Shown piece by piece: positions 8,209 to 26,815 of a stretch of DNA of 64,000 nucleotides (the first letter of the stretch is position 1; each line of letters starts with the position of its first letter). The translations under genes and the position numbers were made by a program. The notes below the pieces were generated by a model that was not told the origin of the DNA, ran no database searches, and saw only the letters and a program-made list of their open reading frames with translations. The stretch is from Euzebya pacifica (lineage in GTDB: Bacteria; Actinomycetota; Nitriliruptoria; Euzebyales; Euzebyaceae). The stretch covers positions 1,741,910 through 1,805,909 of the forward strand of contig NZ_CP031165.1 of assembly GCF_003344865.1 (NCBI RefSeq), in the 5' to 3' direction.

Positions 8209-11200
8209 TCACATGGTTGGGCCTGATGGAGTGCGTGCGATCTGTGTGGGGGTTGGCCGACGTCGCCGTCCCGCGTCCCGCCGTTGGAGGACACGAAGGG
8301 CTCGAACTGCCTCTCGGCGGTCAGGGTGGGACTTGTTGCCCGGGTCCTGACCCAGTGGCGTGTGGTCGGTGATGCGGTGGCGGTCACGGTAGGTCGCGAT
8401 GGCTCGTGCGTGGGCCCACCAGGTGCGCCGCCGCTCGGGGTCTGTCGGCGGTGGGTTGAGGTGGCGGATCCAGGGTTGTTGTTCGATGGCAGACCGGAGC
8501 GCCTTGTCGCCATGCTGTTCGAGGAGGCGGGAACGCTGTCGCAGCGCACGGGTGGTCGCGTCGGATGCCTGGGATTGGGTGGCGCCGATGGCCTCGTGTT
8601 CGGCAGCGAGTTGGGCCGCGGTGTTCCAGCGGGCCTGTTCGTCGGCGATGACCTCGTGAGCGGAGCGGGCCGCGCCGTGGCGGCTGAGTATCCGGGCGAG
8701 GACGGCGTCGCCAGGGGTGGCGGCGGGGCCCAGATGGGGTTCAGCCGTTGGCTGGTCGGTCGCGGTGTAGACGTGGTTGGCGGAGCGCCCGCGGGTGAGG
8801 GCGACGTAGAGCTGCTCGCGGGTCATCGCGGGCGTGGCGATGGTGTGGGCGGTGTCGACCGTTGAGCCTTGGGCTCGGTGGACGGTGATGGCGTAGCCGA
8901 GGTCGACATGCCGCGCGGCGTAGTCCGCGGGAATCCGGACGGTGGCGGCAGGCTGGTCGGGGCGGTGGGCGGTGAGGCTGCCGTCGGTGTGGGTGGCGGT
9001 GACGGTCCAGCGGTCGCCGTTGCGTACCCATCTGCCGTCGCTGGCTTGAAGGGTGCGGCGGTTGCGGCGGGTGAGGATCCAGTCGCCAGCGCTGGCAGCG
9101 GTGCCGTCCCGCAGCGGGACCCCGAGCTGAGCCGATACGTCGCCGTTGGCCTGGCGGTCCAGGCGGGCGCGCCGGTTGAGCGTGGTGACCTGGTCGTTGT
9201 CGGCCGCGATGAGCACTGAGGTGTGGCCGTCAACCAGGTCGTTGCGCCAGGCCAGGTATGCCTGTTCGAGCATGTGATCCGTGGCACCGTCATGGATGCG
9301 GCCATGCTCGCGATAGGTGTCGATGACCGCGGGGTCGCCGTCGCGGAGGCGTTGGGTGGCGTGGCGTTCCCAGTGGTGATGAAACCGGTGGATCTGGGTG
9401 AGGCGGGGATGGTCTGGTCGGTCCCGGGCGAGCAGGCCGAGGGCGCCGCCGGCACCAACCGCGCCGAGCTGGTGGGGGTCGCCCACCAGCAGCACCTTCG
9501 CTCGCCGCTGTTCGGCGTGGCCGGTGATGAGGTCCAGGGTGCGGGTGGAGGCCAGCGACGCCTCGTCGACGATGACGAGCTGGCCGGGCCGGAACCGCCG
9601 GCGGCCGTGGAGGTGCTCGTGGGTCCACTTGGCCGTGTTCTCCGTGGCGATGCCAAGATCATCGGCCAGGACCTGCGCGGCAGCCGCGCTCGGGGCAAGG
9701 CCGATGACCGACCCGGCCCCGTGGGTGTGTTCCCAGGTCTGGCGGAGGGCAGCGAGGGTGGTGGTCTTGCCGGCGCCGGCGGGGCCGATGAGCAGATCGA
9801 GCTGACGGCCCGACGTGGCGATGCCCGCAACAGCGGCGAGCTGGTCCTGGGACAGCCCCGACCCGGATGCGACGACCGGCTGGTTGGCGAGTCGCGGTGA
9901 CGCGGTGCGGCCGCGGTCGAGCAGCCGATCTTCGGCCGCCAGCAGGGCGTGGGAGGTGTAGCGGGTGGCGTGCTTCGGGCGGAGGCGGCCGGTGCCATCC
10001 GGGCGTTGCAGCTCGGCTGGCACCGCGGTTTCGGGTGGGGTGACCCGCAGCGACGCCCGCTCTGCGGCCTCGACAAGTTGCTCGATCGCGTGGTTGCGTG
10101 CGTGGGGGGTTGCGAAGCGCAGGTGCATGGTCTGGCGGGTGGCTTCGGCGTGCAGGTTCCACCGGGTCCAGGTCGACCGCTTCTCCGACACGTGATCGAG
10201 CACGACCAGGGCGTAGCCCTCGACTGCCTCGGCTGGCAGCTCCTCGATGACTTCCGGGGACCCGGTGGGCGGGCGGAGCCATGCTGGGTCGAACCCGAGC
10301 AGCGACCGAGCCCGGTCGGCCCACCGGCTGGTCAGCTCGGCCAGGGGGTGCTGGGTCTTGCCGGGCCGAGTTGCCAGGGTGGCCTGCTGCCGAAGCTTGA
10401 TGACGATCGCTGGCGTTGGGCCAACGCCGTGCGTCGCGCGGTAGTCCGCGACAAGCCGGTCGGTCTCGGTGTCGATGGAGCGGCTGCGGGAGGAGAAGGC
10501 CTTGACCAGCTCGTCGGGGACACCGGCGATCTCCCACGCGGGGTTGCGGTCGGCGCCGCGGGTGCGCTGTTCCCATTGCACGCCGAGGTCGGCGCTGAGC
10601 CGGTCGGCAAGCGCGGCGTTGTAGCGCTCGGACAGCGCGACCAGGGCGTGGTGCACGGGGCGGCTGTCGAGGCTTCGCCACTTGCCGTCGGAGGTCGTGC
10701 AGACCTTGTTGGCGATGACGACATGGGTGTGGAGCTGCGGGTCGCCGGTGCGGGAGTCGTAGTGGTCGAAGGCGGTCGCGATCAGGCCGTCGACGTCGAG
10801 CTGGACCACGCCGGCCCTGCCGGCGCGGGTCGCGGCGACCTCGCGCTCCATCAACTCCACGACGTCGCCGATGGCGGCGTGATGGGCGGCCACGATCCGC
10901 TCCCGGACCTCGGGAGGTGCGAGGGCCCACCACACCGACACCGACTTGGGGGCGGAGAAGGTCAGGTCGAACCCGGCCACCGCCCGCCTGGTCGGCCGGG
11001 ACGCCTCCTCTTGCTCGATGCGCTGCACGGCCGAGGCCCGCTGCTCCGTGCCGAGCCCACCGTCCAGCGAGGCGACCCTGGCGCCGACCCGCTCCTCGCG
11101 GCGCTTGTACTGGGGGAACGCCTGGCCGAGGGCGTCGCCGGTGACCGGGTCACGGCCGGCGCCGAGCAGCCGGGCCATCTGGTCCTCGGTGACCACGTCG

Positions 11201-21763: not shown

Positions 21764-22207
21764 CTAGGCCTCGCGGACCGCGTGGTGGTCGACCGCGCCG
21801 GGGACGTCGTCGTCGGCGTCGTCGACGCGGACGGCCTGCTCCTCGGCGGGGACACCGGCGTCGGGCTGGCCGCTGTCGTCGACGTGCGGTTCGGTGAGCG
21901 GCCGCTCGGCGACGAGGTCCTTCTCGTTGTCGATGCCGGTCGGGGTGTCGGCGTCATCGGCCAACGACGTCGACGTGGTGCCCTCCACCGGGCCGCGCTC
22001 CACCGGCTGGTCGGGGCGTTCGCGTGCCAGCTTGCCGTCCAACGACTCACCCTCGCGCTGCTCGGCCTCGGTCGTGCCGTGGGCGAAGGACGCAACGGGC
22101 TTCTGGGGCATCTCCGCCGGCAGCTTGTCGGCGTCGAGGCGCTCGCCGGACTGGTCGTCATGGTTCCGGGCGGTCTGGTCGATGGCGGGGGAGTCGTGGT
22201 CGGTCAT
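21764..22207 (-). CDS. Acidic DUF5709-like protein
   Basis: A 147-residue, highly charged and probably mostly disordered cytoplasmic protein. Residues about 22-66 carry the DUF5709-like pattern: ERLDADKLPAEMP, then HGTTEAEQREGESLDGKL and a following arginine/glutamate stretch. The C-terminal part is rich in Asp, Glu and Pro. I chose ATG 22207 because the domain begins soon after; the frame extending to 22408 runs antisense through the hydrolase. The same pattern occurs fused to an acetyltransferase in the gene at 24525-25424. The function of this family is not known. Confidence 0.7.
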   Translation of the reverse strand: MTDHDSPAIDQTARNHDDQSGERLDADKLPAEMPQKPVASFAHGTTEAEQREGESLDGKLARERPDQPVERGPVEGTTSTSLADDADTPTGIDNEKDLVAERPLTEPHVDDSGQPDAGVPAEEQAVRVDDADDDVPGAVDHHAVREA

Positions 22208-22238
22208 GGCAGTGTCTCTACCCACGACCCGGGCCGAT

Positions 22239-23065
22239 TCACACCCGTTCGAGCTGTCCCAGGAACCCGACCACTGCGTCGTCCAGGGCGTCCGGCGCAT
22301 CCAGCTGGGGGCAGTGGGCCGCCCCCGGGACGATCTGCAGGCGTGCGTCCGGCATGGCCTCGACGACCAACGGGGCGATGGCGGCCATGCCCACCTCGTC
22401 GTGTTCACCGAGCAGCAGGAGGGTGGGCACGTCGACCTCTCCCAGGTGTGGCCAGGCCGGGGGTCGTTCGGCGGCCTCGCCCACCGGCGCTGCGGCCAAC
22501 GCGCGACCGTTCATGTCGAGGAACAGTTCGCGTGCCTCGCCGGTGACCCGCCCCTCCGGCTGTCGTGCACCGTCCAGCCAGTACCGCGCCTCGATCCGGT
22601 TCAGCTCGGTGGTGTCGCCGGACGCGTCGGCCGCCCGGTAGTCCTCCTCCACGGCAGCCTCCGCCGGATCGGTCACCCAGCGGTCCTCGGGCGCCCCGGA
22701 GGGCAGGGCCCCGATGAGCACCAACCCGTCGACCCGGTTGGGGTTGGCGATCGTGCAGTCCAGCGCCAGCCCACCACCCATGCTGTTGCCGACCAGCACA
22801 GCCGTTGCCAGCCCTGCGTCGTCCATGACCGCCAGCAGGTCGTCGAGGTCGTCATGGGCCTCCGCGCGGTACGTGGTGTCGCCGAAGCCGCGTCGGTCGT
22901 AGGTGATGACCTGGACCCCGGCACGTTCCGCCCAGACCGGTGCGCAGCGCTCCCAGATCCGCCGGTCGCCCACGCCCGGGTGCAGCGCCAGGACTCCGGG
23001 TGCACCAACGTCCCCCCACCGGTCACCGCCAGCATCGCCGACCCGCTCTCGACCATCCAGCTCAT
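22239..23065 (-). pseudogene. Alpha/beta hydrolase with apparent frameshift near its N-terminus
   Basis: The body (22239 to about 23010) encodes a typical alpha/beta hydrolase: oxyanion segment LALHPGVGDRRIW, nucleophile elbow VGNSMGGGLAL with catalytic Ser, a late Asp (LGEHDEV) and a catalytic His (GAAHCPQLD). This frame has no credible start: it runs without ATG or GTG to implausible sequence upstream. The best start signal, GGGGAGG six bases before ATG 23065, is in another frame, which reads MSWMVESGSAMLAVTGG. Adding one base to the run of six C (minus strand G) at 23012-23017 joins the two into one natural protein of about 275 residues. It may be a sequencing error, a recent mutation or slippage. 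Confidence 0.75.
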
Positions 23066-23116
23066 CGTGTTCCTCCCCTGCCCACTCACCGGCTCGTGGC
23101 GGCATCCTACGCAGAA

Positions 23117-23145
23117 CGGCCCGGACGCGGTGGGCGTCCGGGCCG
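23117..23145 (-). terminator. Hairpin terminator of the subtilase gene
   Basis: A perfect 12-bp stem, CGGCCCGGACGC with its complement, encloses the 5-base loop GGTGG. It lies 31 bases beyond the subtilase stop on the minus strand and before the hydrolase ribosome site, separating the two transcripts. Confidence 0.7.
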
Positions 23146-23175
23146 GTCACTGCGGGAACGACCCGCGACGTTCGA

Positions 23176-24524: not shown

Positions 24525-25424
24525 CTACCGGGGGTCGCTGGACAGCAGGGCCCAGCGTTCGTGGTCGCGCCAGGCCCCGTCCAGGTACAGGTAGTCCCGC
24601 GAGTAGCCCTCGCGGCGAAAACCCAGCCGTTCGGCCAGGCGGATCGAGCGGGTGTTCTCCGGCCGGATGTTGGCCTCGGCCCGGTGCAGCCCCATGGTGT
24701 CGAACAGCTCGCCGAGCACCAGGCGCATACCGGCCTGCATCAGCCCACGGCCGGCGCAGGCCTCGAAGGCGTAGTAACCGAGGTAGGTGCTGCGGAAGAC
24801 GCCCATGACGATCTCGTTGGCGTTGACGACACCGACCATGCCCTCGTCGCAGCGGATGACGAAGGACACGAACCGGTCCTCGGGTCGGTCGACCAGCGCC
24901 TTGAACCCGTCGAGGTCGTCGGGCGGCGACACCCACGGGGTGTGCAGCTTCGTGCTCGCCGCCACCGCGTCCAGGAACTCCTCTGCGTCGCCGTGGGTCA
25001 GCCGGCTGACGGTCACGACGTCGAGGTCCCGGTCCCGGTCGACGAGGTGGATGGCGTCCTCCTCGGCGCTGCGGAACCCGCGCGGTTGGCCGGAGTCGTC
25101 GTCGTGGCGGTCCGACCGGCCCCGGATCGACGTCATGGAGTTGGTCGGGTCGGCGTCCTCGTCGTCGCCGGCGAGGATGTCCGGCGAGTCGTCGCTGTCG
25201 TTGTCGTCCTTGTCGCTGGCCCGTCCGTCGTCGGAGACCTCGGGTTCCTCGCGCCGCAACTTGTGGCTGAGCGACTCGCCCCGGGCCTGCTCGGCCTCGG
25301 TGGTGCCGAAGGCCCGCGAGGCGAGCGGCCGATCATCGGGGAACTCCTCTGGCAGGAGGTCGGCGTCGAGCGCCTCCCCGTCCTGGTCGGGGTCGTTGAC
25401 GATGGTCGGCCTGTGTTCGCTCAT
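24525..25424 (-). CDS. Fusion of a DUF5709-like region to a GNAT acetyltransferase
   Basis: A 299-residue protein of two parts. Residues about 15-55 repeat the DUF5709-like pattern of the gene at 21764-22207 (EALDADLLPEEFP, then GTTEAEQARGESLSHKL). An acidic, serine- and aspartate-rich linker follows to about residue 120. Residues about 125-299 are a RimJ/RimL-type GNAT domain: VTVSRLTHGDAEEFL, GLMQAGMRLVLGELFDTMGLHR, and the closing ANIRPENTRSIRLAERLGF. The GNAT part would transfer an acetyl group from acetyl-CoA to an N-terminus or amine. The frame is continuous and ATG 25424 opens the N-terminal part, so the fusion looks real. The role of the added domain is unknown. Confidence 0.78.
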   Translation of the reverse strand: MSEHRPTIVNDPDQDGEALDADLLPEEFPDDRPLASRAFGTTEAEQARGESLSHKLRREEPEVSDDGRASDKDDNDSDDSPDILAGDDEDADPTNSMTSIRGRSDRHDDDSGQPRGFRSAEEDAIHLVDRDRDLDVVTVSRLTHGDAEEFLDAVAASTKLHTPWVSPPDDLDGFKALVDRPEDRFVSFVIRCDEGMVGVVNANEIVMGVFRSTYLGYYAFEACAGRGLMQAGMRLVLGELFDTMGLHRAEANIRPENTRSIRLAERLGFRREGYSRDYLYLDGAWRDHERWALLSSDPR

Positions 25425-25451: not shown

Positions 25452-26720
25452 TCATTGAACACCCATACGGGCGATGATGTCGCCGAGACGGGGATCGGAG
25501 CGGACCTCGGCGAACACCGGGTCGGCCTCCAGCCGCCGCTGGTCGGTCCATCCGCGGTCGGTCGCCATGTACAGCCAGCGAACGGCCCCGTCGATGTCGC
25601 GCAGGCCGGCCCGGGCCGCCGCGGCCGTCACCGCGTGCTGCCAGTGCCCGTCGGGGTCGGTGTTCCAGCCGCCCTCGGCCGCCTGGAGCGCACGTTCGTA
25701 GCGGCCGCCGGCCACCAGGGCCGCGGCGATCGTCGACAGCGCCGCCGGACCGAGCCGTTCGTGGTCCTGCTCGGCGAGGCGCTCGAGGTCGTCGAACCGT
25801 CGGGTTCGTGCGAGGACCGCGGCCAGCGCCTGGGCAGCCGGTCGGCCGGGGCGCAGCTGGTACTCCTGGGCCACCATCTCCACGGCCTCGTCGTTGCGCC
25901 CCTGTCCCAGCGCCTGCTCGGCCATCGCGAGGGTCCGCTGCAGCTGCGGGCTGACCGCGTGGCCGGCGGGGCCCGCTGACGGGGCGTTGTGGTCGACCGG
26001 TGCCGGGTCACGAAGTGCGCCGAGCCGGCGCACGTTCTGCAGGCCCAGGAAGAAGGCGATCAGCAGCAGGAAGAACTGGCCGTTGGTCGCCGCCCAGTAG
26101 CCGCCGAACGCCGCGATCAGGATCGAGACGATCGACGTGATCCTGGCGGCGGCCTTCACCTTCACGAGGTCCAGCAGCGCCTCGAGGGACTGGCCGCCGT
26201 CCAGCGGGTACAGCGGCACGAGGTTGAGGATGCCCCAGCCGATGTTGATGAACAGCAGGTCGAGGAACAGCAGCTCGGGCAGCTGGTCGGTCGCCAGGGA
26301 CGCACCGAACGACAGCCGCATGATCTGGCCGAAGGAGCGTCCCTCGAGGCGGTCGAGCCCGAGGAGGCCGGCCTGCATGCCCACGTAGGCGATGGCGCCC
26401 AGGGCGAGCCCCACGCCGGGACCGGCGAGGGTCGAGACGAGCCGCCGGCCGGGTGTCAGCCGCCCCTCCGCCGAGGTCAGGCCGCCCATGGCGTACAGGG
26501 TGACCTGCGGTTCGCGGCCGAAGGACCGGAACGCCACGGCATGGCCCAGCTCGTGCCAGAGGATCCCGGCGAACACCATCGCGACCCACTCGAGGGCGAG
26601 CACGATGTCGAGGCCGCCGCTGTAGGCCGCCCGTTGCAGGCCGAAGAGTCCCATGATGATCCAGAAGGACGCGTCGACCCTGACGGGGATGGATCCGATC
26701 CGGAAGGTGAGTCCGCGCAT
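25452..26720 (-). CDS. Site-2-type membrane metalloprotease (M50) with TPR-like tail
   Basis: A 422-residue integral membrane protein. HELGH at residues 56-60 lies in the first helix core and supplies two zinc ligands; the third comes from the LDGG motif (LYPLDGGQSLE) near residue 175. Several hydrophobic segments lie between about 20 and 245. The C-terminal 150 residues are soluble helical repeats with A-rich pairs, like TPR units. Family members cleave membrane-bound anti-sigma factors or signal-peptide remnants; the target here cannot be told. I chose ATG 26720, with AGGA at about 8 bases; 26729 and 26747 are upstream options. It is divergent from valS. Confidence 0.85.
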   Translation of the reverse strand: MRGLTFRIGSIPVRVDASFWIIMGLFGLQRAAYSGGLDIVLALEWVAMVFAGILWHELGHAVAFRSFGREPQVTLYAMGGLTSAEGRLTPGRRLVSTLAGPGVGLALGAIAYVGMQAGLLGLDRLEGRSFGQIMRLSFGASLATDQLPELLFLDLLFINIGWGILNLVPLYPLDGGQSLEALLDLVKVKAAARITSIVSILIAAFGGYWAATNGQFFLLLIAFFLGLQNVRRLGALRDPAPVDHNAPSAGPAGHAVSPQLQRTLAMAEQALGQGRNDEAVEMVAQEYQLRPGRPAAQALAAVLARTRRFDDLERLAEQDHERLGPAALSTIAAALVAGGRYERALQAAEGGWNTDPDGHWQHAVTAAAARAGLRDIDGAVRWLYMATDRGWTDQRRLEADPVFAEVRSDPRLGDIIARMGVQ

Positions 26721-26815
26721 GGGGGCCATCCTGCCCGTGGATGCCACCGGCCGCGGGAAGCCGGTCGATCGGGCGGGCCGGCGAGGTGGTGGCTCGGCCC
26801 TACACTGCTGCTCCC

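Follow-up and report, generated by a model that had tools for sequence, protein, structure and literature searches.

A RimJ-like acetyltransferase with an N-terminal DUF5709-like segment: a genus-level fusion and a modest clue to the segment's function

What does a DUF5709-like region do at the N-terminus of an acetyltransferase? The question is raised by an ORF in a 64,000-nucleotide stretch of the Euzebya pacifica genome (the window), where a sequence-only reading had placed a DUF5709-like region fused to a GNAT enzyme, with a stand-alone paralog 2.3 kb away, and had proposed that the domain works with acetylation and that the pairing offers a functional handle on the whole family. Pfam assigns no function to DUF5709, and in the literature available to us the name appears in one paper, where it denotes no more than an accessory gene in encapsulin operons. 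The ORF runs on the minus strand from an ATG at 25424 to a stop at 24525 (299 codons), with a GTG one codon upstream of the ATG as an alternative start (300 codons), and comprises the following parts:

24525..25424 (-): coding sequence of the whole fusion protein (DUF5709-GNAT, 299 aa); dN/dS 0.141 for the entire ORF against its G002 ortholog (see below)
25032..25424 (-): DUF-A, the DUF5709-like region at the N-terminus (residues 1-131), with a net charge of -25 and predicted disorder
25242..25370 (-): N motif LDADLLPEEFPDDRPLASRAFGTTEAEQARGESLSHKLRREEP, residues 19-61; holds residues invariant in the genus and a homologous block in alignment A1
25035..25100 (-): C motif DDDSGQPRGFRSAEEDAIHLVD, residues 109-130; matched below cut-off by the C-terminal part of PF18970 and aligned in profile comparisons
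24528..25031 (-): RimJ-like GNAT acetyltransferase domain, residues 132-299, assigned from PF13302, NF008072, fold matches and pLDDT

The window's genome (G000) was compared with three other genomes of the genus (G001, G002 and G003; n = 4 in total), one of which, G002, encodes a fusion 92% identical to that of G000. In the DUF part these two proteins are separated by 19 synonymous and four nonsynonymous differences (dN/dS 0.054), with no nonsynonymous change in residues 1-62 or 107-131, whereas the GNAT part is under weaker purifying selection (dN/dS 0.185). An artefact, with the true start of the enzyme near residue 97-137 and no translation of the frame before it, could draw on an in-frame ATG at residue 97 and a GTG at residue 137, and further internal start codons occur at residues 56, 154 and 165. 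However, no ribosome-binding stretch is evident by eye before the internal in-frame starts, and neither the ATG nor the GTG has a Shine-Dalgarno-like stretch. The stronger purifying selection on the N-terminal part makes a downstream start unlikely, including one near residue 120, which had been named in advance as one of two findings that would undo the observation. In addition, neither G000 nor G002 has a stop between the two parts, which means that any translation begun at the upstream start gives the fusion. We consider the artefact extremely improbable; the ORF at 24525-25424 is one coding unit, a DUF5709-like region followed by a RimJ-like GNAT.

The Pfam model for DUF5709, PF18970, has 49 columns and represents the C-terminal half only. 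It scored 14.4 bits on the fusion and 16 bits on the first 135 aa alone, with the match in the fusion confined to the C-terminal motif, gave no match to the stand-alone protein (DUF-B) and retrieved nothing from the window's genome at E<=0.001; neither the fusion nor DUF-B reaches the 27.5-bit cut-off for curated membership. Read whole, DUF5709 genes from other genera carry an N-terminal block (P.....FGTTAEE...GESLD.RLA.EEPD), an acidic stretch and then a C-terminal AEEAAxH block. A profile of 11 DUF5709 proteins from these other genera found all seven genus proteins at 32-49 bits, whereas the highest-scoring of 1,400 shuffled sequences reached 12.5 bits, and profile-profile comparison by hhalign matched the genus proteins to DUF5709 with E=3.1e-15 and a probability of 98.5%, giving a significant result for the HMM search with both N-termini that the sequence-only reading had proposed as its check. 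The genus proteins resemble the family in an N motif (GTTxxE..GE[ST]L..[RK]L..EEP, in which G40, T42, E45, E50, L52, E59 and P61 are invariant in the genus alignment) and a C motif (SAEEAA[VMI]H), arranged in the same order with an acidic low-complexity stretch between them. The fusion differs in carrying an enzyme; of the 125 distinct DUF5709 proteins examined, 123 have none. When 396 genomes of the phylum were searched with a DUF5709 alignment, the fusion and DUF-B were the only two genes matched in the window's genome, the better of them at E 2.3e-11, and the wider alignment placed the family in 44 of the 396 sampled genomes and 22 of 236 genera. Homology over the N and C motifs holds, and the profile evidence identifies the fusion segment and DUF-B as divergent DUF5709 relatives that lie below Pfam's line. 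Up to residue 130, no ten-residue block of the predicted (AF2) model averages a pLDDT above 51; a weak helix at 43-55 stands out from this otherwise low-confidence stretch, and residues 1-131 are an acidic, probably disordered segment.

The same model shows a confident GNAT fold from residue 132 (pLDDT mostly 81-97), and residues 139-271 belong to the GNAT family by PF13302 (Acetyltransf_3; 60.8 bits, cut-off 25.4). The nearest curated family is RimJ (ribosomal protein S5-alanine N-acetyltransferase; NF008072), at 81.1 bits. By both sequence and fold, the best solved matches are Mycobacterium smegmatis RimJ (6c30, with a fold-match E of 8.6e-17 for the predicted model, 6c32 and 6c37) and also a Vibrio RimJ (V. 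fischeri 3igr), while the fold matches also include structures of MccE and SpeG. Shared with RimJ-type enzymes are the GNAT fold itself, an AGRGLM loop that we take to be the acetyl-CoA loop motif, and a C-terminal GAWRDH stretch. The fusion differs from RimJ in scoring far under the equivalog cut-off (81 vs 190 bits), in its patchy occurrence in the class, unlike a housekeeping enzyme, and in the added DUF5709 segment; with a score well below the RimJ cut-off, its substrate could be other than that of RimJ. N-termini are given as the targets of RimI, RimJ and RimL in PMC6640162. Close relatives of this GNAT were also seen in a recurring locus of one family (f12; L233, L235, L239, L242, L246, L248 and L249), flanked by an FtsK-like gene and, on the opposite side, by an HTH (RodZ-like) gene that is often joined by a CinA-like gene (names by inspection).

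The fusion lies in a row of minus-strand genes that includes, on the downstream side, the stand-alone paralog:

25452..26747 (-): M50 (site-2-protease-type) membrane peptidase gene, upstream of the fusion and 27 nt from its start; PF02163, 36.7 bits
23176..24453 (-): S8 subtilase gene between the fusion and DUF-B; its last 99 residues alone match in G002
22239..23150 (-): alpha/beta hydrolase gene between the fusion and DUF-B; present in G002
21764..22207 (-): DUF-B, stand-alone DUF5709-like paralog, 147 aa, assigned by BLASTP, profile and tree

DUF-B aligns with the first 131 residues of the fusion over 117 aa at 44% identity (BLASTP, E=1e-16), and its position 2.3 kb away is as first described. 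In a phylogenetic tree, the A and B proteins form one clade (100/98), in which support is high for B (100/98) and lower for A (94/85); a single clade (100/98) also unites the three GNATs of the genus. On alignment and tree, DUF-B is a true within-genus paralog of DUF-A, and the tree together with the gene arrangements in the genus makes the A/B duplication look older than the fusion. All seven DUF proteins of the genus begin with Met1 followed by Ser or Thr at position 2, and P6 is invariant; bacterial proteins commonly have one of these two residues after the initial Met.

The locus takes three forms in the genus: the fusion in two of the four genomes, three packed genes in one and DUF-B alone in one, with the M50 peptidase as a conserved neighbour in G001, G002 and G003. 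G001 has, in this order, the genes for the M50 peptidase, DUF-A, GNAT, DUF-B and clpX; the DUF-A stop at position 8802 of L034 and the GTG start of the GNAT at 8804 are in different frames with 1 nt between them, and DUF-B starts 37 nt past the GNAT stop, a spacing suggesting that this split state is probably translationally coupled. The split and fused forms differ by a linker of about 25 nt that contains the stop codon. A sequencing error behind the G001 split was judged unlikely, as G001 has about 25 nt more linker and, by eye, the single long homopolymer run comes after the stop. In G003 the M50 peptidase is followed by a sulfotransferase-like ORF and DUF-B, and neither DUF-A nor a GNAT of the fusion type was found there; because G003 keeps DUF-B with an unchanged N-terminus, DUF-B does not need such an enzyme. 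Neither the alpha/beta hydrolase nor the S8 subtilase has a match in the G001 or G003 locus. Between the fusion or GNAT and DUF-B there are no genes in G001, the hydrolase and the last 99 residues of the subtilase in G002, and both complete genes in G000; genes have been gained or lost at this site within the genus. The G002 subtilase (compared at L035:10278-10574) has kept its position and is apparently truncated or decaying.

The 125 distinct DUF5709 proteins in the fetched loci yielded no DUF5709-GNAT fusion outside the genus. A tail of more than 40 aa after the domain occurs in two of them, both from the genus and both ending in the enzyme, and a rough codon-composition test found no coding-like N-terminal extension among the 125. 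We also counted GNAT genes around 100 DUF5709 loci, namely the best 80 of 501 from Streptomycetaceae and 20 regions from 18 genomes of the phylum. A first profile recorded a GNAT at three of the 100 loci and missed a RimI detected by Pfam; its union with a second profile gave a GNAT anywhere in the fetched flanks at 16 of the 100 and within 1 kb at one (L181). Six genomes from a single family, 53.7 Mb in total, contain 480 PF00583 matches (0.14 per 16 kb), a density at which about 14 such loci would be expected, so GNATs occur near DUF5709 at about the background rate. Among 48 immediate neighbours from 12 loci, 20 were scanned with Pfam and one of these 20 was a GNAT. Close relatives of the fusion's GNAT (at least 125 bits) are present in 23 of 296 genomes, and 17 of these 23 also hold DUF5709, a count that is dominated by a few families, assumes nested samples and is not taken as evidence. 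Outside the genus, adjacency of a RimJ-like GNAT and DUF5709 was seen in none of the 14 genomes holding both. Within the genus, by contrast, DUF5709 and a GNAT share a locus in three of four genomes. The original observation is confirmed and its interpretation partly supported, while a functional handle on the DUF5709 family as a whole reaches too far. The fusion is a genus-level domain architecture built from two known families.

The only independent sign of a wider tie between DUF5709 and acetylation is a weak one, from another actinobacterial family (f60). There, one genome (G256) encodes in a row tsaB, rimI (TIGR01575, 98.9 bits, cut-off 86.4), a membrane-protein-like ORF, DUF5709, a plsC-like gene and tsaD. 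This order recurs in six of the 30 best loci, which were drawn from 42 matches in 40 of the 61 genomes of the family, and the remaining 24 lack it; it was found in all five sampled, matching genomes of one genus and in one genome of another. Loci with the cluster are L181, L258, L259, L267, L269, L273 and L279. The likeness to our locus is that a DUF5709 gene is clustered with a gene for an N-alpha-acetyltransferase, RimI being the ribosomal protein S18-alanine N-acetyltransferase. The differences are that RimI belongs to another GNAT subfamily and is unfused, that an extra membrane-protein-like ORF lies between the genes, and that five of the six loci come from one genus.

As an explanation of the fusion we tentatively favour, at a little short of an even chance, a RimJ-class GNAT tethered through its N-terminal DUF5709 segment, which is long, acidic and disordered. 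The GNAT would move acetyl groups from acetyl-CoA to protein N-termini, as its nearest characterised relatives do, and the segment would bring the enzyme to whatever DUF5709 proteins bind, with DUF-B as a client or as a partner at the same site as the fusion. As its N-terminus starts Met-Ser or Met-Thr, DUF-B would be a plausible type of substrate once the Met is removed. This account draws on the fusion kept in G000 and G002, the packed genes of G001, the selection on the DUF part, the clades in the tree and RimJ as the best match. Against it stand the presence of DUF-B without the enzyme in G003, the lack of a GNAT link beyond background outside the genus, the GNAT's score far under the RimJ cut-off, and the AF2 model, which leaves the segment unstructured, contact between the two parts not being seen in computation. 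Neither the genus alignment nor that of the wider family contains an invariant lysine, which disfavours conserved side-chain acetylation of DUF5709. The proposal that the domain works with acetylation thus finds backing in one locus of the genus, but not in the form in which a conserved lysine is the substrate.

The main rival to a tether, possible if somewhat doubtful, is a fortuitous operon fusion, in which a stop was lost from the short stretch between the neighbours DUF-A and GNAT and the joined product was tolerated because the DUF segment is disordered, with no functional tie between the parts. The two genes of G001, 1 nt apart in different frames, fit such an origin, as do the hydrolase, subtilase and sulfotransferase-like ORF that came and went in the locus, the absence of any above-background link outside the genus, and G003, which has no such GNAT. 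However, the joint has been kept since G000 and G002 split, its DUF part is under strong purifying selection, and the close spacing in G001 (1 nt) already points to coordinated translation. It is also conceivable, though unlikely on balance, that DUF5709 is itself the substrate, the GNAT acetylating the N-terminal Ser or Thr of DUF-B and likewise that of DUF-A, whether fused to it or encoded separately. The Met-Ser or Met-Thr start and invariant P6 of the seven genus proteins, the adjacency of the genes, the RimJ N-acetyltransferases as nearest solved relatives and the DUF5709 gene within the rimI cluster at six of 30 loci all suit this idea, but G003 keeps the same N-terminus without a GNAT, the second-position residue is a common one, and start sites are uncertain outside the genus. 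A small-molecule role like that of SpeG or MccE, in which the DUF segment would merely stabilise or place the enzyme, is suggested by the presence of both structures among the fold matches, and appears improbable given that RimJ proteins are best by both sequence and fold.

A broader proposal is that DUF5709 proteins in general are disordered clients or adaptors of ribosomal-type N-alpha-acetyltransferases, RimJ-like in this genus and RimI in the unrelated actinobacterial family; we regard this as rather unlikely, more so than acetylation of DUF5709 termini within the genus. If true, such a client or adaptor class would be the first functional assignment for DUF5709, a family present in 44 of the 396 sampled genomes, and a naturally tethered enzyme would open a direct experimental route into it. 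The link belongs to a single genus, with a weak counterpart in one other family, which limits its reach and leaves the fusion as only a modest clue to the function of the segment.

A candidate regulatory element was noted upstream of the stand-alone gene:

22205..22244 (-): promoter-like element GTGT-N17-GGGTA, 11 nt 5' of the DUF-B ATG; equivalents in 4/4 genomes of the genus

This element, which we take to resemble the SigF/SigB type, has counterparts before DUF-B at L034 9348-9386, L035 9293-9332 (-) and L036 10384-10421 (-). In the general form GT[GT][TG]-N16-17-GGGTA it lies 10-11 nt 5' of the DUF-B ATG in all four genomes despite differing upstream genes; this form is present 8-17 times per genome (control 1-8), and the window's genome encodes a SigBFG-type sigma factor (290.7 bits). 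A family-wide SigB/SigF promoter for DUF5709 was rejected, as GTTT-N14-18-GGGTA[TC] occurred in one of 100 upstream regions versus 0.1-0.15 expected; the candidate element is consistent only 5' of DUF-B in the genus. By inspection of the L098-L197 flanks, some Streptomyces DUF5709 genes lie amid genes that look like a stress or sigma regulon (GAF/ANTAR-like, SpoIIE-like phosphatase, sigma factor and STAS), and in a separate group of 15 loci the DUF5709 gene directly precedes an L31-type-B-like gene.
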